29,373 nt of DNA, taken from the IMG/VR virus record IMGVR_UViG_3300017598_000418, positions 1 to 29,373 of that record. One strand, given 5' to 3'. Both the position numbers and the translations under genes were made by a program. This DNA is from a virus. The notes under the pieces are model-generated. The model saw nothing but the letters and a program-made list of their open reading frames with translations, was not told the origin of the DNA and did not search any database. This document shows, one piece after another, positions 1,511 to 22,108 of the stretch (the first letter of the stretch is position 1; each line of letters begins with the position of its first letter).

Positions 1511-4483
1511 TTAATCTGCTGCACCACCATCAGCAAAAGTGCCTCTATAGTTGTAAGCGGTCCAGATACCTGCTCCACCAGAGGCGTAATCGCAAACGAG
1601 CCAGACAAATTCTCTATATGTTGCTCCGGTAACATCCAATTCATCGTCGGCATCTAAGATGGTGCCAGCCCATGAGATCTTATCTAATGCGTCTGTAACT
1701 CCTATTGAAATAGTTTCGGTATCTGTGCTTTTTACGATATATACATGCCGAAGATTATCTTCATCGTATGTATCACAAACATCAGGCAGTAGTATATCGT
1801 CTGTTCCGGCGCTCCTTTCAACCCTATATTGTTCTCCATAACATCCGGTGGCAGGGATAGTATAATCGGCACCTATAACATCTAAGTCCACATTATTTTG
1901 TTTGAGCCCGAGACTTACTGTTGAAACATACCAGGCCCCGTCCTCGTCAAATAAGGCAACATAATCAGCACCGTCATAAATAGCGTAATAAGCCGCACTC
2001 CCAGACAACGTAGCAGGGTTCCAAGTCGTGTTATCGGCATAGTAAATCTGCCCCGCAACCGGAGACCCAGGAGCGCCTGTTAATTTGTCAAGTTCCAGGG
2101 TGGCAAGCGATACCCCAACTCCTGTGTCATCTGTTTCAACAAACTCAGTTACATCGGACAGTGCAGAATAAAGTCCCGCCTCGTTTGTCAGGGCGTCCTG
2201 TTTTGTGCTTGTATTATCATCGACATACTTTTTATTGGCCACTTCGTAATCCGCGTCCGGGGCAGCGGAAGCCGTAATCGGGAAAGCTGAGAACGTCCAT
2301 TCAACTGAAATGGTTTCACCTTCGTCTGATTTCACTATAGCGGCGTCAAGTGGTTCATATGCAACATCGCCAATAGCGTCGATAGCCTGTTTCACCCTTT
2401 CTGCCGTCCACACTCTTTCTGTAGTGGCACTGCCGGCTTCTGCCTCGGCTTGTGAAGGAACTGCAAGGTCTGCCTGAACGTCTGTGCCGATTACAAGACC
2501 CAAGTAAACCAACATAGCGGCTTTATTAGCAGCGGCGAGAAGGAGTTGAATGTCAGCAGAAGGGGTTATTCCTGCGTAGGTCGTTAGGTCGGCATCGTAA
2601 GCGTTAAAATCAACATCGGCTTCAAGGTTAAAGTCGCCCTTAAATTCTGATTCGGTTCTACCCTCAATCCCGTTTGCAGTAAACCTTGCATATTCATCAT
2701 CATTCGGAGAGCCATCTACTTCGACAAGGTTATCATCTGCGATACCGATTGTTTGTTCGGCTAATACATCCGTACCAATAACAAGGCCCAAATACGTAGG
2801 ATCAATCAATACCCATTGATAATTTGATGTGTCAGCTTCGTAAGTCAAAGCATATTCATCTGTCTCAGCATTAGCAATGTTTAAATGTGCAGGGTCTATT
2901 GAACCATCATTGTAATGCTCGCTATCGATACCATCATCAGCAATTTTAGTTTCATCTATGATGTCGGCTGCCAAATGTTCTGCATCAATTGACCCAGCAG
3001 CATAATGTTCGGATTCTACTATATCATCCCCTATGTCAGAGCCGTCTATGAAATCGTCTGTACAATCTCCCGTGGTGCACCCGCCAACCATTGTAATGTC
3101 GCCGCCTCCCGCCAACTCAACCCACTGGAAATTTGATGTGTCAGTCTCATATGTGAGGACATACTCATCAGTCTCGGCGTTGGCAATGTTTAAATGTGCA
3201 GGATCAATTGACCCATCTGTATAATGCTCACTGTCAACGGCATCGTCGGCCATTTTAGTTCCGTTAACTGAGTCTGCGGCCAAATGCGCCAAATCAATAC
3301 TTCCGTCTGTATAATGTTCACTGTCAATAGCATCGTCAGCTATGTCTGTCCCATCAACAAAATCATCGGTGCAGTCACCAGTGGTGCAGGTGCCAACTGT
3401 GGTAATGTCCCCGCCCGCGGTTAACTCAATCCACTGAAAATTAGTGGTATCAGCCTCATAGCTCAAAACATATTCGTCAGTCTCGGCGTTGGCTATATTA
3501 AGGTGCGCAGGGTCTATACTGGCATCATTGTAATGCTCCGAGTCTACGCCATCATCAGCAATTTTGGTTTCCTCTATGATATCAGCCGCAAGGTGCTCGG
3601 CATCGATACTGCCAGCGCCATAGTGCTCGCTCTCAATAACATCGTCAGCTATATCCGTCCCATCAACAAAATCATCAGTACAATCCCCGGTAGTGCATCC
3701 CCCAACAGTGGTAATATCGCCACCCGCCGCATGTTCCACCCATTGAAAATTTGTGGTATCAGCTTCGTAGCTCAAAACGTATTCATCGGTTTCCGCGTTA
3801 GCGATATCAAGGTGTTCTGGGTCAATGCTGCCGTCATTATAATGCTCCGAATCGATACCTTCATCAGCAATTTTGGTTTCATCAACAATATCTGCCGCCA
3901 TGTGCTCGGCATCAATAGACCCGGCTGCATAGTGTTCAGATTCCACGACATCATCGCCGATATCGGTGCCATCAATGAAATCGTCCGTGCAATCTCCCGT
4001 AGTGCAATCACCGACCGTAGTGATGTCACCGCCGCCAGGGATATCGACCCACTGGAAATTGCCAGTATCGGCCTCGTAGGTCAACGCATATTCATCGGTT
4101 TCAGAGTTTGCTATATTAAGATGTTCCGGGTCAATGCTGCCGTCAACATAGTGATCAGAATCAACTTCATTATCGGGCATGTCCTGACGAATCCATACTC
4201 CCGATGTAGTATAATTTTTACATCGAATATAATCAGGAGAACTTGTAGCATTGGTGGCGCTCTGATCAAAATAATAAAAATATCGCGAACCAGAGCTGGT
4301 CACCACATACCCCGTTCCATCATCAGTTGAAGAACCTGTGCCATAAACATCATCACAATCTATATTATCAACACTACCGGGCACCTCACCGGTAAGCGAA
4401 GTAAAAAATCTTGTGAAAATTCCGGCATAACCGTATGGTGATAAAACCAATATAAATAAAAAAGCTATTAAAAATCGTTTCAT
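1511..4483 (-). CDS. Large repeat-rich tail fibre with N-terminal signal peptide (990 aa)
   Basis: The protein opens with a Sec-type signal peptide (MKR, core FLIAFLFILVLS, then PYGYA before GIF). Residues 150-561 are four tandem copies of a 103-residue module. Each copy carries a GDITTVG-type motif, a CTTGDC cysteine pair and two SEHYxxGSID-type sub-repeats; SID-x-x-H repeats of this kind are common in phage tail fibres. The region after residue 600 has other fibre hallmarks: SQAEAEAGSATTERVWT and NKKYVDDN, which recur in fibre stalks. The C-terminus is beta-rich and contains further cysteines. The ATG at 4483 overlaps the upstream stop (ATGA). The likely role is receptor binding at the tail tip. 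The signal peptide is the odd feature, because tail fibres normally fold and assemble in the cytoplasm. Fibre identity is well supported; export is inferred. Confidence 0.85.
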   Translation of the reverse strand: MKRFLIAFLFILVLSPYGYAGIFTRFFTSLTGEVPGSVDNIDCDDVYGTGSSTDDGTGYVVTSSGSRYFYYFDQSATNATSSPDYIRCKNYTTSGVWIRQDMPDNEVDSDHYVDGSIDPEHLNIANSETDEYALTYEADTGNFQWVDIPGGGDITTVGDCTTGDCTDDFIDGTDIGDDVVESEHYAAGSIDAEHMAADIVDETKIADEGIDSEHYNDGSIDPEHLDIANAETDEYVLSYEADTTNFQWVEHAAGGDITTVGGCTTGDCTDDFVDGTDIADDVIESEHYGAGSIDAEHLAADIIEETKIADDGVDSEHYNDASIDPAHLNIANAETDEYVLSYEADTTNFQWIELTAGGDITTVGTCTTGDCTDDFVDGTDIADDAIDSEHYTDGSIDLAHLAADSVNGTKMADDAVDSEHYTDGSIDPAHLNIANAETDEYVLTYETDTSNFQWVELAGGGDITMVGGCTTGDCTDDFIDGSDIGDDIVESEHYAAGSIDAEHLAADIIDETKIADDGIDSEHYNDGSIDPAHLNIANAETDEYALTYEADTSNYQWVLIDPTYLGLVIGTDVLAEQTIGIADDNLVEVDGSPNDDEYARFTANGIEGRTESEFKGDFNLEADVDFNAYDADLTTYAGITPSADIQLLLAAANKAAMLVYLGLVIGTDVQADLAVPSQAEAEAGSATTERVWTAERVKQAIDAIGDVAYEPLDAAIVKSDEGETISVEWTFSAFPITASAAPDADYEVANKKYVDDNTSTKQDALTNEAGLYSALSDVTEFVETDDTGVGVSLATLELDKLTGAPGSPVAGQIYYADNTTWNPATLSGSAAYYAIYDGADYVALFDEDGAWYVSTVSLGLKQNNVDLDVIGADYTIPATGCYGEQYRVERSAGTDDILLPDVCDTYDEDNLRHVYIVKSTDTETISIGVTDALDKISWAGTILDADDELDVTGATYREFVWLVCDYASGGAGIWTAYNYRGTFADGGAAD
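2801..4036 (-). repeat. Four tandem 309-bp coding repeats in the tail fibre gene
   Basis: Four head-to-tail units of exactly 103 codons each code for residues 150-561 of the fibre. All four copies are in register without insertions or deletions, while third codon positions have drifted widely. A fifth half unit (the SIDPEHLNIANSETDEY part) precedes the first full copy, at residues 107-149. The pattern indicates old internal duplication kept under protein-level selection, and such arrays allow fibre length to change by unequal recombination. Confidence 0.9.
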
Positions 4484-13226: not shown

Positions 13227-13637
13227 TTATACAAATGTAATGGGGCCAGATCCAGACAGTGTGAAACTAATCCCGGCGACTGCATCATGGGCCTGGTTCA
13301 GCGTATAACTGGTAACTCTGCCACCGGCATCCGAATCGGTTGTTACATCCGGAATCCAATAGCTTGCAGAATCAACATATAGTTTAATTGTGTTGACCAG
13401 ACTGCCGCCGGCCCAAGCAGCTTCAATTGGACCTTGCCCATCAGAATCGCTCGGATCGTAATTACCATCGACAGACAGAGACCATCCACGCATCCCAACA
13501 TCTGATTTTTTCCATGTACTGCCAAAAGCAGTGGTATCGATCTCATCATTTGAAAGATCCAAAGACCAGCTTGCCAGCTCAGCGACCGTGTACGTACCAT
13601 ATTTTACTGTTGCATTCCTGCCATTATAAGTGGACAT
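13227..13637 (-). CDS. Major tail tube protein (136 aa)
   Basis: The sequence STYNGRNATVKYGTYTVAELASWSLDLSNDEIDTTAFGS is typical of phage major tail (tube) proteins, which begin with a strand pair followed by a DTTAFGS-type loop. The later WSLSVDGNYDPSD and ISFTLSGSGPITF fit the same beta-barrel fold, which hexamerises around the tape measure. It has the strongest ribosome binding site of the region (GGAGGG before the ATG at 13637), consistent with a highly made protein. It directly follows a glycosyltransferase gene and precedes the chaperone, so the six-gene modification cassette ends right beside it. Confidence 0.88.
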   Translation of the reverse strand: MSTYNGRNATVKYGTYTVAELASWSLDLSNDEIDTTAFGSTWKKSDVGMRGWSLSVDGNYDPSDSDGQGPIEAAWAGGSLVNTIKLYVDSASYWIPDVTTDSDAGGRVTSYTLNQAHDAVAGISFTLSGSGPITFV

Positions 13638-13656: not shown

Positions 13657-14280
13657 TTAAAATGAAAAACCCTTCAACCCCTGGTTAAGCATATCCTGCT
13701 GCATCGCCCAAAGGTTGTAGTTTACTCTTGTCATTGTTAAGTGCTCGGTTCTAACCGTTGTATCAACATAAATCTTAAATCCTGCATCCCCAGCCCTATA
13801 ACAAAAAGCAATGTCTTCTCCGACTGGTTTGTTATCATGCATCCCAAACTCAAACCACGGCATTTCCATGACATCAAACACAGATGTTTTAATCAATAAG
13901 CACCCCGTTCCGGTTGCTGTCACCTCTACAAGCCCATCGGGTATCGGATCAATCGGAGTCATTTTATAATGATCCCCAGTAAATAGGATTGGATCAAAAT
14001 TAGGGAGTCTCTTAAAGGTCATCGCCCCTACAATATCCTTATCATGTTCCAACAGTCTTGAAATTGTATCAGGTGGATACACCATATCCGCATCCAGAAA
14101 AAGCAAGTGAGTGCATTCCAGCGAAAGCGCCTCAAGCACTATTGCATTTCGCATTGCGTGTATTGGACCACTTTCTCCACGAATCACTTGCGCCCCATGC
14201 TTGTCCATCATTAACAAACTATGCATGAAATCTGATGGAACATAATTCCAATTCAATGGTATCCCTAATGCCAGCCTCAT
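13657..14280 (-). CDS. Glycosyltransferase, GT-A-like, paralogue of the head-side enzyme (207 aa)
   Basis: The N-terminus LALGIPLNWNYVPSDFMHSLL and the motifs GPIHAMRNAIV, HLLFLDADMVYPPDTI (DxD metal site) and PVGEDIAFCYRAGDAGFKIYVD indicate a GT-A fold nucleotide-sugar transferase. The protein at 21449-22108 has the same layout (GPIDAIRND, TDTDQVYPQD, PVGEDIGFYIKAREAGFRVFVD), so the two are distant paralogues. The ATG at 14280 overlaps the upstream gene by ATGA and has a GGGGGAGA leader; an in-frame TTG at 14292 is less likely. It is the last gene before the tail tube. The likely substrate is a virion protein or a surface glycan; the donor sugar is unknown. Confidence 0.83.
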   Translation of the reverse strand: MRLALGIPLNWNYVPSDFMHSLLMMDKHGAQVIRGESGPIHAMRNAIVLEALSLECTHLLFLDADMVYPPDTISRLLEHDKDIVGAMTFKRLPNFDPILFTGDHYKMTPIDPIPDGLVEVTATGTGCLLIKTSVFDVMEMPWFEFGMHDNKPVGEDIAFCYRAGDAGFKIYVDTTVRTEHLTMTRVNYNLWAMQQDMLNQGLKGFSF

Positions 14281-14876
14281 TCTCTCCCCCAATTACTTTT
14301 TAATCGTTTCCGATATAACAAAATATCATGCGCCAACCAATCCTGACTATACACCCGACGATAATCAGAATCATCAGACTTGATATCAACTATCGGGTGA
14401 TCGTGATATACAAAGGCATCTTTGCAAAACACATATCGACCCAATATGGATGCCCGTACTGTGAGTTCGTTATCACACCAGCAATGCTTATATCCCGTAT
14501 GGAAAAACTCGCCATCAAGAAATGGGAGCAACCGTTTATCAGCGAGCCAGTGTGCTGCTGCCTTTTTTTGTCCTTTGAGTCGTATATTATCGTCAAATCC
14601 AACCAGCCCCCAACCATCAGGCAAAGTCGCCATCGCTTCGATAGCATGTTTTAAAAACCCCTTTTGCGGTATTGTATCATCACCGAGAAAGCAGACTAAC
14701 TCCCCCTGGCAGGAATCAGTCATCTTTTTAACCATCTTCGGCGCACCGATTCTTTCGGTATCTTCCTCGGTGATGATTTCATACTGGCTGGCGAGTATCC
14801 CGCTATTCTCAATAACAGCGTTCCTACAACGCTCAGCCTTTTCCGGCCGTATGACCGGAATGATGATTGATATCAT
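14277..14876 (-). CDS. Glycosyltransferase family 2-like protein (199 aa)
   Basis: The sequence starts ISIIIPVIRPEKAERC, the nucleotide-binding first strand of GT2 enzymes, and continues to ELVCFLGDDTIPQKGFLKHA, where GDD takes the place of the DxD metal site. Later residues (FHTGYKHCWCDNELTVRA and FVYHDHP) sit where acceptor-binding elements are expected. The protein is short, without membrane segments, so it is a soluble cytoplasmic enzyme. Both ends overlap neighbouring glycosyltransferase genes by ATGA, implying coupled translation of three transferases. Donor and acceptor cannot be assigned. Confidence 0.82.
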   Translation of the reverse strand: MISIIIPVIRPEKAERCRNAVIENSGILASQYEIITEEDTERIGAPKMVKKMTDSCQGELVCFLGDDTIPQKGFLKHAIEAMATLPDGWGLVGFDDNIRLKGQKKAAAHWLADKRLLPFLDGEFFHTGYKHCWCDNELTVRASILGRYVFCKDAFVYHDHPIVDIKSDDSDYRRVYSQDWLAHDILLYRKRLKSNWGRE

Positions 14877-15616
14877 TCAAATACCTTCGGACAATTTTTA
14901 TTGATATCGCATAGAAAAAATAAATCATCTGCTGTGACATCAAAATTATGAGCCGATAGATTTGCCGCTTTATTCTCGTCACTCATCCGGTTTTTGCGGC
15001 CCTTTATCCTGCGTTCAATCGCAAGAGATAAATCAGCCATAGCCCAATGAGCACCTTGCAACATAGTCGGATGATACTGTTTTGCCATCGCATCTATTTC
15101 ATGATGCCCAACTGACCAGCTAAACTCCTTGCCGGCCCTGGCAACCGCTGGCTTCATCCACCTGAAAAGCCCATTCCGCTGCCCATGTTTACGTTGGTCA
15201 AATACCGGAGTGCCTCGGTTTAATGCCAACTCGTTTCTGTGCTGAAACATCTGGAAATAATCAACTTTAACCACATCAACAGATACAGAATTTAAAAAAT
15301 GTTTTAAGCCGCCCCTTGGAGGATAAATATACTCATCAGCATCAGCAATTATTACCCACCCGTCAGTGATCTTCATATACTCAATATTGATTTGTCTCTG
15401 CTTTAATTTATCATCCATGCCTTTTGGCATATCAAGTTGTTTGACAATGATATCCGGACACTGATACCGGAACGCAAAATCCTTAATGCAATCCTCTGTA
15501 CTATCATTTGTTGACTCATCCAACAAGACTATGATCTTGTCAGCAAATTTATAATGGTACAAAAACAGATTTGATAAAAATTCTTCATTGTACCAAGCTG
15601 TTATGACTGTGATCAT
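14873..15616 (-). CDS. Glycosyltransferase family 2-like protein (247 aa)
   Basis: The start ITVITAWYNEEFLSNLFLYHYKFADKIIVLLDESTNDST is the hallmark of GT2-like proteins that begin with an AWYNEE strand. The metal-binding motif appears in GWVIIADADEYIYP. The C-terminal half has several histidines and tryptophans (SWSVGHHEID, LQGAHWAMAD). It is soluble with no membrane helix. The ATG at 15616 has an AAGGAT leader, and only eight bases separate it from the radical SAM gene. It opens the three-transferase half of the cassette. Confidence 0.83.
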   Translation of the reverse strand: MITVITAWYNEEFLSNLFLYHYKFADKIIVLLDESTNDSTEDCIKDFAFRYQCPDIIVKQLDMPKGMDDKLKQRQINIEYMKITDGWVIIADADEYIYPPRGGLKHFLNSVSVDVVKVDYFQMFQHRNELALNRGTPVFDQRKHGQRNGLFRWMKPAVARAGKEFSWSVGHHEIDAMAKQYHPTMLQGAHWAMADLSLAIERRIKGRKNRMSDENKAANLSAHNFDVTADDLFFLCDINKNCPKVFE

Positions 15617-15624
15617 ATTTATCC

Positions 15625-16512
15625 TTATAAGATATTATATCTTGCAGGATTATCAGAGCAATTGTCTCCCCGATAATTACGGGGGTCCCAGGTTTTCAAA
15701 TTTTCTTTTATTCGTTCAATATCAAATTTATCATTAAATTCTGTTGCCCACTTACTATCAGTAAATTTAAGATCGCTATCTTTCATCATGGCAAGCAAAT
15801 TGGGAGTGATCAACTCTTTCTTGTCATTTAAAAGTTGTCGTTCCATCGGTATCGCCATCCCGCAAAGGTGGCAACACGCCGCAACCTGATCATTAAATTC
15901 TCCCGGTTCTTTAATGAACCATTCATAATCTAACGGCCAACCGGAATTTAAATCAAATAGCCGGTCGATCCCGTACCCCACTTCACAAAAGTAAGCCTTG
16001 TCCTCAGCAATCGAAGGACACCAGTTGAGCTGTACCCAGCAGTTGTCAATCAACTTATCCCGCAATGCTTTATCCGGGACAGCCTCGCCTATTGCCACGG
16101 TAGCCGGTTGATGTTTACAAGTCTGACGCTGGTTCTCATTATGCTCATTATAAGCTAATAATCCGAAAGTTTTATCAATCAAGCTTTTATGTTCTTGAAA
16201 TTGCTTGCCCCCGTATGTCCATAAACCATATCTTGCCCTCGTGCCCCGCTTTAAAAGTAATTTACAGATGGCCTCAAATTCCGGATGCAAAGTTGGCTCG
16301 CCACCAATGATGCCTATTCGGTTGGGCCATTGACGAGCACTTTTCTTTTTGGGCATCAATGTTTCCAAGGCATAATCTATTTCATCCAGCGTCATGTAAA
16401 AATACTGATCGCCTCGCAAGTGCCTTGTCCACCGGCTGCAATATACACACGATTTTTCACAGTAATTGGTCACCTCAATATGGCAAAACCATGCTTTATA
16501 AATTGGTCTCAT
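15625..16512 (-). CDS. Radical SAM protein with extra C-terminal cysteines (295 aa)
   Basis: The CEKSCVYC motif at residues 18-25 is the CX3CX2C ligand set for the [4Fe-4S] cluster that cleaves S-adenosylmethionine. It is preceded by FCHIEVTNY and followed by the GGEPTLHPEF motif at residues 70-79, which binds the SAM amino group. The C-terminal half holds more cysteines at residues 132, 158, 165, 176, 213, 214 and 217, suggesting a second, SPASM-like auxiliary cluster. Its start overlaps the cytidylyltransferase stop (ATGA). The neighbours suggest it modifies a sugar, an alcohol phosphate or a protein side chain, but the reaction is unknown. It is not a QueE-type enzyme, since that family has a different cysteine spacing. 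Confidence 0.85.
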   Translation of the reverse strand: MRPIYKAWFCHIEVTNYCEKSCVYCSRWTRHLRGDQYFYMTLDEIDYALETLMPKKKSARQWPNRIGIIGGEPTLHPEFEAICKLLLKRGTRARYGLWTYGGKQFQEHKSLIDKTFGLLAYNEHNENQRQTCKHQPATVAIGEAVPDKALRDKLIDNCWVQLNWCPSIAEDKAYFCEVGYGIDRLFDLNSGWPLDYEWFIKEPGEFNDQVAACCHLCGMAIPMERQLLNDKKELITPNLLAMMKDSDLKFTDSKWATEFNDKFDIERIKENLKTWDPRNYRGDNCSDNPARYNIL

Positions 16513-16928
16513 TCCGTGTTCACCCTTAAATATTCCTTCCGCAGTAGTGTTGATGAGATACCCTCCGTGTACGGTATCTCAATTAAAATGCCATCCCATC
16601 TTCTTATAGTTTCGACCACCTCGCGCCGAGCATGTGCCTGTTTCCCGGTCTGCCAATTATCAGCATGTATCACGTACTCTGGACGAATGATTTCAAGATT
16701 GTTTTTATAGCTCAATGTTTTCTGTGGATAAACAGATTGCACCATCCGAAGACTTTCCACCACCACCTTCCTTTGCTCATATGTCATGGCTGGTGGATTT
16801 TTGTATGTTGCAATTGCCTCATCAGTGAGAAGGCCCACGATCACATCCCCGTATTTTTCCGCATGAGTGAGTAAATTAATATGACCATGATGGAGCAAAT
16901 CGGCACACATACCGGCATAAATTCTCAT
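16509..16928 (-). CDS. Cytidylyltransferase-like nucleotidyltransferase (139 aa)
   Basis: The HxGH signature is present at residues 13-16 (ADLLHHGHINLL), and the C-terminal ISSTLLR at about residues 126-132 matches the second conserved motif of the small cytidylyltransferase family (glycerol-3-phosphate, phosphoethanolamine or phosphonate activating enzymes). Such enzymes join CMP to a phospho-alcohol or phosphonate head group. The start chosen is ATG at 16928, which overlaps the LicD-like stop (ATGA); a longer in-frame start would cut into that gene. Pairing with a LicD-like transferase directly upstream implies that it makes the CDP-activated donor for that enzyme. The substrate itself is unknown. 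Confidence 0.85.
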   Translation of the reverse strand: MRIYAGMCADLLHHGHINLLTHAEKYGDVIVGLLTDEAIATYKNPPAMTYEQRKVVVESLRMVQSVYPQKTLSYKNNLEIIRPEYVIHADNWQTGKQAHARREVVETIRRWDGILIEIPYTEGISSTLLRKEYLRVNTE

Positions 16929-17449
16929 GCGGCCCTCTCTGTATAGATACCCTTTGATTTCCTCGGTGTTCTCCAATCTGGCCCATAACGAAAAGCGAGG
17001 TAATCTTTCACCGGCCCCGGCGCCCGATAGATGCCATATTTTGTTTCTATGATTTCCGGATTTAAATAGAACTTGGCTGGCACCTGCATAATGCCCATAT
17101 CATTATGATTAACTACAAAATTTTCTTTCATCCATAATATCCAAACATCAAATATCGTGCCTTGGTACATGAACGCCAGTTGATGTGGTAGCTCCCAATG
17201 AAATCCTGTTCTGATCAAGTCCATATGCCCTAAAGCTTTAAACACGTCATACTCGATGCCATCATAGCCGATCATGTCAATATCAATGTCGGAGTCTCCT
17301 GGTATGAAGTCACCATCCCGGTAGAGTCCGAGCAATGTTCCAGCGCTGATAAAAGATTTTTGTAGCAAATGCGCCTGTATCAATACACGAGGCGCAACGT
17401 CCATGTTCAACGGGTCCATTCTAAATTGTCTATGATTAATTATTCTCAT
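16925..17449 (-). CDS. LicD-like phosphotransferase (174 aa)
   Basis: The sequence ISAGTLLGLYRDGDFIPGDSDIDIDM is the nucleotidyltransferase-fold signature of the LicD/fukutin family, with the Asp pair in DSDIDID as metal ligands. The C-terminus ends DYLAFRYGPDWRTPR, also conserved in that family. LicD enzymes transfer phosphocholine or related phospho-groups from a CDP donor onto sugars. The protein is near the minimum size for the family. It is the first gene of the six-gene cassette and directly follows the tail terminator gene. It overlaps the cytidylyltransferase start by ATGA, a strong hint that the two work together. Confidence 0.84.
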   Translation of the reverse strand: MRIINHRQFRMDPLNMDVAPRVLIQAHLLQKSFISAGTLLGLYRDGDFIPGDSDIDIDMIGYDGIEYDVFKALGHMDLIRTGFHWELPHQLAFMYQGTIFDVWILWMKENFVVNHNDMGIMQVPAKFYLNPEIIETKYGIYRAPGPVKDYLAFRYGPDWRTPRKSKGIYTERAA

Positions 17450-17457
17450 TCGCCCCC

Positions 17458-17853
17458 CTAACTATCCTTGCGAGTCCATATACTATATTGAACGGTGTAT
17501 CGTTGAATTTCTTCAGTAGGATCTTCAGTCAAACTGTTCCAATCCCGTTCCATTCTTAAAAATTGGTATCCTGCAACAGTCAATGTGCAATCATCAAAGT
17601 CCGTCATGCATTTATCAGCAAGAGTTAATATATTGCTTGAAGTATTGACATCGATGATATCAATTTGAATTTCAGATACATCAAATGTGGATGTGAAATT
17701 ATAATCAGCAGCATTGGTTATAAGCTGAAAAACAGCATACGGCTTATCAATGCTTTGTGGTGCTGAATTGAGATAAAACTGATCCGAAAGCGCGTCCATG
17801 AAATTATCTTCAGCCACCGCTTGATCATATATCGCTTTTAATACGTCTTTCAT
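17458..17853 (-). CDS. Tail terminator / DUF3168-like tail completion protein (131 aa)
   Basis: The protein has the DUF3168 outline: an N-terminal helix (VLKAIYDQAVAEDNFMDALSDQFYLNSAP), then KPYAVFQLI and a beta strand VSEIQIDIIDVNTSSN, ending in TVQYSIWTRK. Members form the ring that stops tail growth and docks the tail to the head (lambda gpU-like role). The gene follows the gp10-like gene with an ATGA overlap, the standard order. Downstream lies the modification cassette rather than the usual tail tube gene. Confidence 0.82.
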   Translation of the reverse strand: MKDVLKAIYDQAVAEDNFMDALSDQFYLNSAPQSIDKPYAVFQLITNAADYNFTSTFDVSEIQIDIIDVNTSSNILTLADKCMTDFDDCTLTVAGYQFLRMERDWNSLTEDPTEEIQRYTVQYSIWTRKDS

Positions 17854-19858: not shown

Positions 19859-20602
19859 TTATGAACTTCTATTACTAAGAATCTTGACATAGTCAATATT
19901 CATGTCGCCAAGACCAGTTCCGGTTGCTTTATCAAGTGAAAAATAAGGTTGCATTTGCTGCTCACCAGCAGTCAAGTTTGACATATCAAACGTTGTGCTC
20001 GCCGCTACCCTGACACCATCGATGAAGAACTTGACATCCGCAATGGTTGTAAAGTCAATTCTGAAAATATTATAAGTCCCGGCAACAACGGTCACTCCGG
20101 TTGTAGCTGCGGTGTCATTCGTTGTGTCGTCTGACTCGACACTCGTAGCCATCGATGCGGCCCAACTAAACCATGCTGCATTTGCAACACTGTCCTTTGC
20201 CAAATTATGAGGCCCCGCCATACCAGCCACCGCTCGGACTCCGGACCCAGGAGCAACTGCCATGTTAATTCTGGCTTCGAAAATAAGACCATTACCGACA
20301 TCAAAATTCATGTTGTCGTTATGATCCAGCACCACATCCTCGGCTTCACTGTCAGCCGCCAGGTGCAGCAAAAACTGCCCGTTGCTCGAATCCGCAACGA
20401 TTTCAACAGTAGGATTAGTAGAGGTTCCAACCTCAAGGATACCCCAAATCATCGTATCATCAAATACACTCCCACCAGCCGCCCCCAAGAAATCATCATA
20501 AAACTGTAAGGGATACGTGCTCTGAAGGGTCTCAAAAGTTGAACCATCATACCAAACCTGATGGCCCGTGTTTTGCCAATTCCAATCACATTTTATCGTC
20601 AT
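19859..20602 (-). CDS. Lectin-like (concanavalin A-like fold) protein, duplicate copy 2 (247 aa)
   Basis: The protein is a close paralogue of the neighbouring gene at 20660-21397: both share NWQNTGHQVWYD, FYDDFLGAAGGSVFD, IVADSSNGQFLLHLAA, DVGNG-IFEARINMAV, AGTYNI-RIDFTT and the C-terminus LGDMNIDYVKI-SNRSS. The pattern of an early FYDDF strand, an IFEARI strand and late YNIFRIDFTT, VKFFIDGVRV strands matches concanavalin A-like/LamG sugar-binding domains. It is soluble, with no signal peptide, and is preceded by AAAGGAA. Likely a head fibre or decoration protein that binds carbohydrate; this role is inferred from fold pattern and place. Confidence 0.75.
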   Translation of the reverse strand: MTIKCDWNWQNTGHQVWYDGSTFETLQSTYPLQFYDDFLGAAGGSVFDDTMIWGILEVGTSTNPTVEIVADSSNGQFLLHLAADSEAEDVVLDHNDNMNFDVGNGLIFEARINMAVAPGSGVRAVAGMAGPHNLAKDSVANAAWFSWAASMATSVESDDTTNDTAATTGVTVVAGTYNIFRIDFTTIADVKFFIDGVRVAASTTFDMSNLTAGEQQMQPYFSLDKATGTGLGDMNIDYVKILSNRSS

Positions 20603-20627
20603 TTGTTAATTCCTTTCAGCCATTGCT

Positions 20628-20652
20628 GACCACTGCATGAAGCAGCAAAAGG
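20628..20652 (-). repeat. Intergenic duplicate copy 2 (25 bp) with small hairpin
   Basis: This 25-base stretch before the copy 2 gene matches 23 of 25 bases with 21423-21447 before copy 1. On the minus strand it contains CTGC and GCAG arms that can pair (CTGCTTCATGCAG). It shows that the leader was duplicated together with the gene. Confidence 0.8.
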
Positions 20653-20659
20653 GTTATTG

Positions 20660-21397
20660 TTATGAACTTCTATTGCTCCAAATTTTTACATAATCAATGT
20701 TCATATCGCCGAGGCCGGTTCCGGATGCCTTGTCTAAAGAAAAATAAGGCTGCATTTGTTGCTCTGCCGCAGTTAAGTTCGACATATCAAACGTGGTCGA
20801 AGTACAAACCCGGACACCATCAACATAAAATTTCACATCGGCAAGAGTTGTGAAGTCAATCCTATAGATATTATAGGTTCCCGCAACTGCCGTTAATCCG
20901 GTTGATGTATCATCATTGTCATTTGTGGTGTCATCAGACTCGCACAAAGTCGCCAAGCTCGCTTGCCATCTAAACCAGGCATGAGCAGCAACAGTATCTT
21001 TATCTAAATTGTGATCATTTGCCAACCCCGCAACAGCAGCCACACCGGTTCCCGGCGATACTGCCATATTAATACGAGCCTCAAATATCACCCCATTGCC
21101 AACGTCGAAGGTTCTGTTATTGCTATGATATAGCACAGCATCTTCAGCCTGTGACGTTGCTGCCAAGTGGAGCAAAAACTGACCATTACTCGAATCCGCT
21201 ACGATCGCTTCAGTAGCATCGTTGACATCGACAACATTCCAAATTTGTGTTCCATCAAATACAGATCCACCCGCCGCACCAAGAAAATCGTCATAAAAAT
21301 ATAACGGATAGCTGGTCTTCAGAGTCTCGAAAGTCGATTTATCATACCATACCTGGTGGCCTGTATTCTGCCAATTCCATTTACATCCTATAGCCAT
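20660..21397 (-). CDS. Lectin-like (concanavalin A-like fold) protein, duplicate copy 1 (245 aa)
   Basis: It is the upstream member of a tandem pair with 19859-20602; most positions are identical over the full length, with differences clustered at residues about 49-66, 88-95 and 125-165. Those clusters probably mark surface loops, including the region after VAGLANDHNLDKD. Concanavalin A-like strand pattern as in its twin (FYDDFLG, VIFEARINMAV, VKFYVDGVRV). It has a good AAAGGAAA leader. Because it sits between a glycosyltransferase and its own copy in the head block, a capsid-bound adhesin or glycan-bearing fibre is possible. No enzyme active site is evident. Confidence 0.75.
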   Translation of the reverse strand: MAIGCKWNWQNTGHQVWYDKSTFETLKTSYPLYFYDDFLGAAGGSVFDGTQIWNVVDVNDATEAIVADSSNGQFLLHLAATSQAEDAVLYHSNNRTFDVGNGVIFEARINMAVSPGTGVAAVAGLANDHNLDKDTVAAHAWFRWQASLATLCESDDTTNDNDDTSTGLTAVAGTYNIYRIDFTTLADVKFYVDGVRVCTSTTFDMSNLTAAEQQMQPYFSLDKASGTGLGDMNIDYVKIWSNRSS

Positions 21398-21448: not shown

Positions 21449-22108
21449 TCAAATGTTTATCCCGCTGTTACCGGCCAAGACAGCCTTGTAAGCAAAATAG
21501 CTTTCTTCAGTAACAACCATGCGGGTCAGATGCCCAATCTTAATTGAGCAATCCACGAAAACTCGAAAGCCAGCCTCCCGAGCCTTTATATAAAATCCAA
21601 TATCCTCGCCCACGGGGTTATCAAAATCATACAGATTAAAATCAAACCAAGGAGCAGGTATTTTTTCAAAAACTTCCATGCTGAGCAAAACCGAACCGAA
21701 CCCCGTTGCATCAACTTCGACCAATTGCCCACCGTCTATCGACCACTCTGCATCAGGCACAGTATTAAAATTATCAAGTGTCCCTCGTAGCAAAATGGGA
21801 TCATACGGAGGTGTCCGGCGATGCACTTTTGCAGCAACAATTTTTTCATCATGTTCTAATAACCGCATCAAAACATCTTGGGGATATACCTGGTCAGTAT
21901 CCGTCATCCAAATATGAGTACAGCCCGTTAATATCGCTTTCTGCACAAGATCATTTCTGATCGCATCAATCGGACCACCACCTGTCGGCAATAATTGTAC
22001 ATGCCGGGGCTTGGTGATAATATTAAACGAATTCACATATTCTGACGGATACGTGTCTTGGACATTCGGAATTCCTATCCCTAATTTAATACCGCTTAAA
22101 TCTCTCAT
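21449..22108 (-). CDS. Glycosyltransferase, GT-A-like, in the head gene block (219 aa)
   Basis: The layout matches the tail-side paralogue at 13657-14280: LGIGIPNVQDTYPSEYVNSF, GPIDAIRNDLV, HIWMTDTDQVYPQDVLMRLLEHDE (DxD-type metal site) and NPVGEDIGFYIKAREAGFRVFVD. These point to a soluble GT-A nucleotide-sugar transferase. Its neighbours are a capsid-adjacent protein upstream and the two lectin-like proteins downstream, so head proteins are the likeliest acceptors if it modifies the virion. Host surface glycan remodelling is the alternative. Confidence 0.83.
   Translation of the reverse strand: MRDLSGIKLGIGIPNVQDTYPSEYVNSFNIITKPRHVQLLPTGGGPIDAIRNDLVQKAILTGCTHIWMTDTDQVYPQDVLMRLLEHDEKIVAAKVHRRTPPYDPILLRGTLDNFNTVPDAEWSIDGGQLVEVDATGFGSVLLSMEVFEKIPAPWFDFNLYDFDNPVGEDIGFYIKAREAGFRVFVDCSIKIGHLTRMVVTEESYFAYKAVLAGNSGINI

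Follow-up and report, generated by a model that had tools for sequence, protein, structure and literature searches.

A radical SAM, LicD and cytidylyltransferase operon in a phage tail module: a candidate system for virion glycosylation, possibly with phosphonate capping

To our knowledge, glycosylation of virions is known from few phages, and there only with plain sugars. In mycobacteriophages, subunits of the capsid and of the tail tube are reported to carry glycans (Freeman 2023, as cited in PMC12619734). Phosphonate tailoring of glycans is known from bacterial cell surfaces, where 2-aminoethylphosphonate (AEP) is activated by PntC, a LicC-like cytidylyltransferase of family PF12804, and where a LicD-like transferase and glycosyltransferases (GTs) take part (Rice 2019, PMC6697681). 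Fom1, from the Streptomyces fosfomycin pathway, produces CMP-HEP (HEP, 2-hydroxyethylphosphonate), and 23.6% of Ppm enzymes carry a fused cytidylyltransferase domain of family PF01467 (Rice 2019, PMC6697681). Here, we describe a six-gene cassette in IMG/VR virus record IMGVR_UViG_3300017598_000418. This record, the window of our analysis, has 29,373 bases, is probably a fragment of a phage genome, and carries its morphogenesis module on the minus strand.

The cassette consists of six open reading frames (ORFs), all on the minus strand and bounded by a tail terminator (PF11367) and a tail tube protein (PF06199). They code for a LicD-family protein, a cytidylyltransferase (CyT), a radical SAM enzyme (rSAM) and three GTs (GT1 to GT3). 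Four ATGA overlaps connect LicD with CyT, CyT with rSAM, GT1 with GT2, and GT2 with GT3, while gaps of 8 bases separate rSAM from GT1 (15617-15624) and the terminator gene from LicD (17450-17457). The six genes make up a single operon at this place in the tail module. A preliminary description had named these genes, both flanking genes, the two ATGA-joined groups and the gap between them, all of which we could confirm. With a GC content of 40-44%, the cassette does not depart from the record (44.9%). No other contig was found to have the full six-gene order; its component parts recur in other combinations. We consider that the cassette has about an even chance of being a system which glycosylates a virion protein, probably the tail tube, and caps the glycan with a CMP-activated phosphonate, or possibly phosphate.

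The locus shares with the bacterial system the combination of cytidylyl activation, a LicD-like transferase and GTs, but its CyT belongs to PF01467 and is encoded in a tail operon. Mycobacteriophages likewise use phage-encoded GTs, and the family of GT3 is also found in them, but we came across no account of steps by a radical SAM enzyme, by LicD or with a CMP-phosphonate in those phages. Neither the glycosylation of virions nor the tailoring of bacterial surfaces with phosphonates is new in itself; the new element is their joining in a phage tail operon, for which we found no example in the limited literature searched.

The CyT matches PF01467 with 49.3 bits and contains both the HxGH motif and the C-terminal signature (Y/R)TxGISST (alignment A4). 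In the PDB, its top match (E 1.9e-49, with the next family at E 7.6e-18) is 5x3d, deposited under the name phosphoenolpyruvate phosphomutase, which we take to be the CyTase domain of Fom1 with its product CMP-HEP. Identity to the Fom1 CyTase domain is 57-58%, as opposed to about 28-35% to TagD, TarD, ECT and CCT. A carefully built tree pairs the window CyT with its sister from L020 (support 96/91), a phage in which LicD flanks the CyT on both sides, and places the window CyT within a 14-row, mostly viral clade (96/87) that is nested inside the clade of PepM-fused enzymes. It retains 14 of the 17 residues that separate the PepM-fused clade from other cytidylyltransferases. Because of the best PDB match, the nesting and these diagnostic residues we read the CyT, as far as sequence can tell, as an enzyme of the phosphonate (Fom1/HEP) type and not of the TagD, ECT or CCT type. 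Unlike Fom1 and the CyT-PepM fusions, it is a stand-alone protein with no PepM partner, and its gene lies with those of LicD and the GTs in a tail locus.

The genomic context of related CyTs is consistent with this assignment. In the isolate collection, the two best-scoring matches are CyT-PepM fusions beside phosphonopyruvate decarboxylase (Ppd), and in one case an AEP-transaminase-like gene is nearby as well. Among the best 80 relatives from GTDB (48-57% identity), on which this comparison rests, nearly all CyTs for which the gene was called are the N-terminal domain of a CyT-PepM fusion, mostly adjoining Ppd and an iron alcohol dehydrogenase (Fe-ADH), which corresponds to the HEP route. A scan of viral contigs with the single CyT sequence gave no match; with an alignment as query, 40 loci were retrieved, and 21 of these are CyT-PepM fusions, mostly followed by split Ppd and Fe-ADH, i.e. 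again the HEP route. CyTs from AEP-transaminase operons are on average less similar to the window CyT (42% versus 53%), but AEP is still possible as a substrate, since one AEP-labelled row is equally close (53%).

Operons with CyT-PepM, split Ppd and Fe-ADH, and thus a complete CMP-HEP route, are present in L025 (9974-13000), L030 (10043-14000) and about 20 further IMG/VR contigs. Two contigs with such operons (106 and 96 kb) also encode a T4-type Gp23 capsid protein and a terminase, so that at least some of these contigs come from genuine phages. In most of the 20 other contigs tested, the Gp23 and terminase hallmarks are lacking, and such contigs may be genome fragments or stem from host DNA. 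A 77 kb viral contig (L054, 6372-10420) has the route in unfused form, with separate PepM, Ppd and Fe-ADH genes between LicD and a stand-alone CyT. A distinct clade of stand-alone viral CyTs outside the HEP type (L049-L053) adjoins a LicD or LicD-like gene, with a radical SAM-like gene downstream. In the literature searched, a limited library, we found nothing on viral phosphonate synthesis.

The LicD protein exceeds the PF04991 cut-off (26.4 versus 22.6 bits), but only 29 of 227 profile positions are matched, all of them N-terminal. It has the catalytic motif GTLLGxxR...DxDxD (DxDID), of which the G, the LG, the R and three D are invariant in alignment A6. A structural model by AlphaFold2 (AF2; pLDDT 78.5) matches FKRP (Foldseek probability 1.0, E 5.5e-7), and a profile of the 19 LicD-like proteins in A6 finds FKRP in the PDB at E 1.1e-14. 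FKRP moves ribitol-phosphate from CDP-ribitol onto a sugar, and the titles of its PDB entries name CDP-ribitol and a sugar acceptor. The protein is thus predicted to have the fold and the motif of a transferase using CDP- or CMP-activated donors. It differs from the known LicD and FKRP phosphotransferases, which use CDP-choline and CDP-ribitol, in being short and in being paired with a phosphonate-type CyT. LicD and GT2 alike gave no tblastn match among 50,697 records of isolate phages.

In the viral loci, which were fetched mainly via CyT, LicD occurs at most four genes from CyT in all 28 distinct cases, and in 24 of these at most two genes away or in the same chain. As the loci were largely chosen for CyT, this linkage holds within them and gives no general frequency. 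For stand-alone viral CyTs of the HEP clade, LicD is at most two genes away in six of eight cases. The preliminary description had pointed out that LicD enzymes use CDP-activated phospho-groups and that HxGH cytidylyltransferases make such donors. A pairing of this kind is strengthened here by the LicD motif, the FKRP fold and the linkage of the two genes in many viruses, and we are confident that LicD and CyT are a donor-transferase pair.

The same enzymes are found at the same place, beside terminator and tube, in a second group of uncultured phages, but as one polypeptide. L047 and L175 encode a single protein of 852-853 aa with the order GT, LicD, CyT, GT, and the domains are confirmed by Pfam in L175. 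A scan with the fused protein retrieved ten more contigs (55-60% identity), which results in a total of 12 (L047, L175, L178-L187). Nine of the 12 have both tail terminator and tail tube directly downstream, and of the remaining three, L047 has the terminator while L185 and L186 have the tube. We conclude that LicD, CyT and GT occur at the tail locus of a second phage group in a different architecture. Where the sequence is longer, the islands also contain a DegT aminotransferase, a GNAT acetyltransferase, methyltransferase-like genes and more GTs; no rSAM was seen at these loci.

The rSAM matches PF04055 (35.1 bits, residues 12-90) with a CxxxCxxC motif; its predicted model, based on a three-sequence alignment, reaches a pLDDT of only 38. 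GT1 is similar to PF13704 (E 1.5e-4, below the Pfam threshold). Profile searches found homologues of the rSAM in Desulfobacterota, for which the neighbourhoods of 14 genomes were fetched, and none in 398 genomes of Pseudomonadota. A GT1 homologue adjoins the rSAM in five bacterial loci (L205, L214, L215, L216, L217), is fused to it in a single 574 aa ORF in L218 (6777-8501), and is also found beside it in viral L004/L018. In four of the 14 genomes, two of which have related loci, flagellin is encoded within 6 kb of the rSAM gene, where about 0.1 would be expected from flagellin counts and genome sizes, and FliD is near rSAM in two Desulfobacterota genomes. This proximity points to protein glycosylation of filament subunits, which would provide a testable role for an uncharacterised radical SAM-glycosyltransferase pair of Desulfobacterota. 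As the CyT is Fom1-like, we also considered that the rSAM might be a Fom3-type B12 methylase acting on CMP-HEP. This was rejected, because PF04055 is its only Pfam match, with no cobalamin-binding domain, and because it travels with GT1 and occurs with it in phages and bacteria without CyT; by these tests the rSAM is not Fom3-like.

GT2 matches PHROG 14775, a glycosyltransferase family (E 7.6e-6), and is below the Pfam threshold. Its relatives, 68-74% identical, reside at the same or neighbouring structural loci, namely beside terminator or tube in L009 and L012-L015 and elsewhere in the head/connector region in L010 and L011, with L017 as an exception. GT3 belongs to PF03452 (Anp1, 31.2 bits) and PHROG 1574 (E 2.9e-21) and has relatives in mycobacteriophages and cyanophages. 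The window contains a GT3 paralogue, 41% identical, which adjoins the capsid genes and is possibly the capsid counterpart of GT3; the same arrangement is found in L019. GT genes are thus located beside both tail tube and capsid genes.

Two related phages (L018 and L019, the same contigs as L004 and L005) have rSAM-GT1-GT2-GT3 at the same site, bounded by terminator and tube, without LicD-CyT. In its place, L018 has a protein-kinase-like gene, a sulfotransferase and an epimerase, and L019 has a sulfotransferase-like gene, a GT17 and a second radical SAM of SPASM type. The four genes from rSAM to GT3 are therefore a core common to related phages and LicD-CyT is an exchangeable front end. As core and front end are separable across phages, the rSAM need not tailor the phospho-group. 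The cassette had been proposed to be one pathway which builds a phosphorylated or phosphonylated, radical SAM-tailored glycan. The phosphonate-type CyT and the pairing of rSAM with GT1 agree with parts of this proposal, as do the fold, motif and CyT linkage of LicD and the rSAM-GT1 pair at flagellin loci, but the single pathway unit has to be given up and the radical SAM tailoring of the phospho-group is not required. The variable front end might also mean that LicD-CyT and the core are functionally unrelated morons at one permissive insertion site. We consider this quite improbable, because LicD, CyT and GTs are found in one chain in twelve other contigs, the genes are coupled by ATGA, and the sulfotransferases in the same slot are likewise typical glycan-capping enzymes.

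The GT-LicD-CyT-GT fusions beside tail genes and the occurrence of the rSAM family near flagellin indicate an acceptor on a virion protein, which we regard as probable. As the acceptor we favour the tail tube, in view of its position in two phage groups and of the tail tube glycans reported for mycobacteriophages. Host surface polysaccharide would be the acceptor if the enzymes served serotype conversion, receptor masking or superinfection exclusion. In bacteria, glycans of the cell surface are the usual targets of LicD and phosphonate transferases (PMC6697681), and several viral CyT loci lie within polysaccharide-like clusters. However, none of the six proteins has a segment resembling a membrane span (maximal 19-residue mean 1.42), so the hydrophobic span of Gtr-type O-antigen conversion genes (GtrA, GtrB, integral-membrane Gtr) is lacking in them, although such genes may lie in the missing part of the genome, and the cassette has no flippase or lipid-linked GT. 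As the proteins are without membrane spans and are encoded inside a tail operon, at a position that recurs in the second phage group, and as rSAM relatives are near flagellin genes, we judge an action on the host surface to be unlikely. Even less probable is that the GTs hypermodify phage DNA and that LicD and CyT place a phospho-group on the DNA-linked sugars. Glycosylation of modified bases by viral GTs does occur (Pyle 2024, as cited in PMC12619734) and the early region of the phage is not on the contig, but no base-modification gene was seen in the window, the genes belong to an operon of late structural genes next to the tail tube, and rSAM homologues are found near flagellin.

A mechanism can be proposed in which the cassette is a late-expressed virion-glycosylation module. 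On a virion protein, most likely the tail tube encoded next to the cassette, GT1 and its rSAM partner would start or shape an unusual sugar, and GT2 and GT3 would extend the glycan. CyT would use CTP to activate a phosphorus acid, most likely HEP, to its CMP form, from which LicD would move the group onto a sugar hydroxyl of the glycan, resulting in an anionic, hydrolysis-resistant cap. The phosphonate might be provided by the host or by genes beyond the recovered contig. We infer which donor and which acceptor are used, what chemistry the rSAM performs, and the benefit, which may be shielding or altered adsorption. That the head group is a phosphonate seems likely on balance. In its most specific version, with a tail tube glycan capped by C-P-bonded HEP through a phage CMP-phosphonate synthase and LicD and aided by the rSAM-GT pair, the proposal is tentative and less likely than not.

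Several observations weigh against this proposal. Three of the 17 clade-specific residues differ in the CyT, and no PepM, Ppd or Fe-ADH is encoded in the 29 kb window. PepM was also absent from the records of seven phages with stand-alone CyT, and a search for PF13714 in 15 related viral records gave one match; the source of the phosphonate is therefore unproved and the substrate has perhaps shifted. The CyT of the fused proteins is outside the HEP clade, and they may thus use another head group. For the rSAM, the closest bacterial homologues, five in number (46-51%), have no flagellin within 20 kb, so that the flagellin association is one of the family and not of each member, and general glycan clusters are often found near flagellar loci. 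Between the window and L018/L019, amino acid identity of the tail tube is 81-82%, with 50-57% for capsid and portal (L019), but this could result from ordinary structural constraint. As fourfold degenerate sites in the tail tube comparison are saturated (33-43%), the similarity reflects protein constraint, and a recent transfer of the tail tube is ruled out. A scan anchored on the tail tube retrieved only the two known relatives and remote ones without the cassette.

The absence of phosphonate synthesis genes would also fit a rival reading in which the same virion-glycosylation module transfers a phosphate ester (phosphocholine, phosphoethanolamine, glycerol- or ribitol-phosphate). CDP-choline-like donors are normal for LicD enzymes, the nearest fold is that of the CDP-ribitol enzyme FKRP, and PF01467 also covers enzymes for glycerol 3-phosphate and ethanolamine phosphate. 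The much higher identity of the CyT to Fom1 than to these enzymes (TagD, TarD, ECT, CCT) and its nesting in the PepM-fused clade argue for a phosphonate, and we consider the phosphate ester a less likely but real alternative.

If the phosphonate step is correct, the cassette would nearly amount to a new type of virion chemistry, and a tail tube glycan capped by HEP would be, as far as could be found, the first virion phosphonoglycoprotein. A phospho- or phosphonoglycan on tails would add to the surface chemistry of viruses and help to explain how particles avoid binding or attack. In the marine phosphonate cycle, phosphonates bound to glycans have been attributed to the surfaces of bacteria (PMC8931226), and a phosphonoglycan on tails would connect phages with this cycle.

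The features are listed in Table 1. Two start codons were refined, to ATG 16928 for CyT (TTG 16976 gives a longer reading) and to ATG 14280 for GT3 (longer reading from TTG 14292).

Table 1. Cassette genes and associated features in the window.
Feature	Position	Strand	Evidence
Tail terminator (gp17 family), upstream border of cassette	17458..17853	-	PF11367
LicD-family phosphotransferase (putative), 174 aa, motif GTLLGLYRDGDFIPGDSDIDID	16925..17449	-	PF04991; AF2 model matching FKRP
Stand-alone Fom1-type cytidylyltransferase (CyT; predicted), 139 aa, HHGH + YTEGISST	16509..16928	-	PF01467; PDB 5x3d; tree
Radical SAM enzyme (rSAM), 295 aa, CEKSCVYC, Cys-rich C-terminal half	15625..16512	-	PF04055
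Glycosyltransferase GT1, PF13704-like, WYNEE + DADEY	14873..15616	-	weak Pfam; homologue beside rSAM elsewhere
Glycosyltransferase GT2, GT-A type	14277..14876	-	PHROG 14775
Glycosyltransferase GT3, Anp1/PHROG 1574 family, DADMVYP	13657..14280	-	PF03452; PHROG 1574
Tail tube protein, proposed glycan acceptor	13227..13637	-	PF06199
GT3 paralogue beside capsid/decoration genes	21449..22108	-	41% identical to GT3

Two further features of the window were noted. Between head and connector genes (19859-21397), two tandem paralogues of 247 and 245 aa are encoded which are 75% identical and are possibly decoration proteins; the one that was tested has no Pfam match. A tandem repeat of 309 bases (2.7 copies, 3324-4145) is located within a fibre-like gene of 990 aa (1511-4483) and results in repeated protein units.

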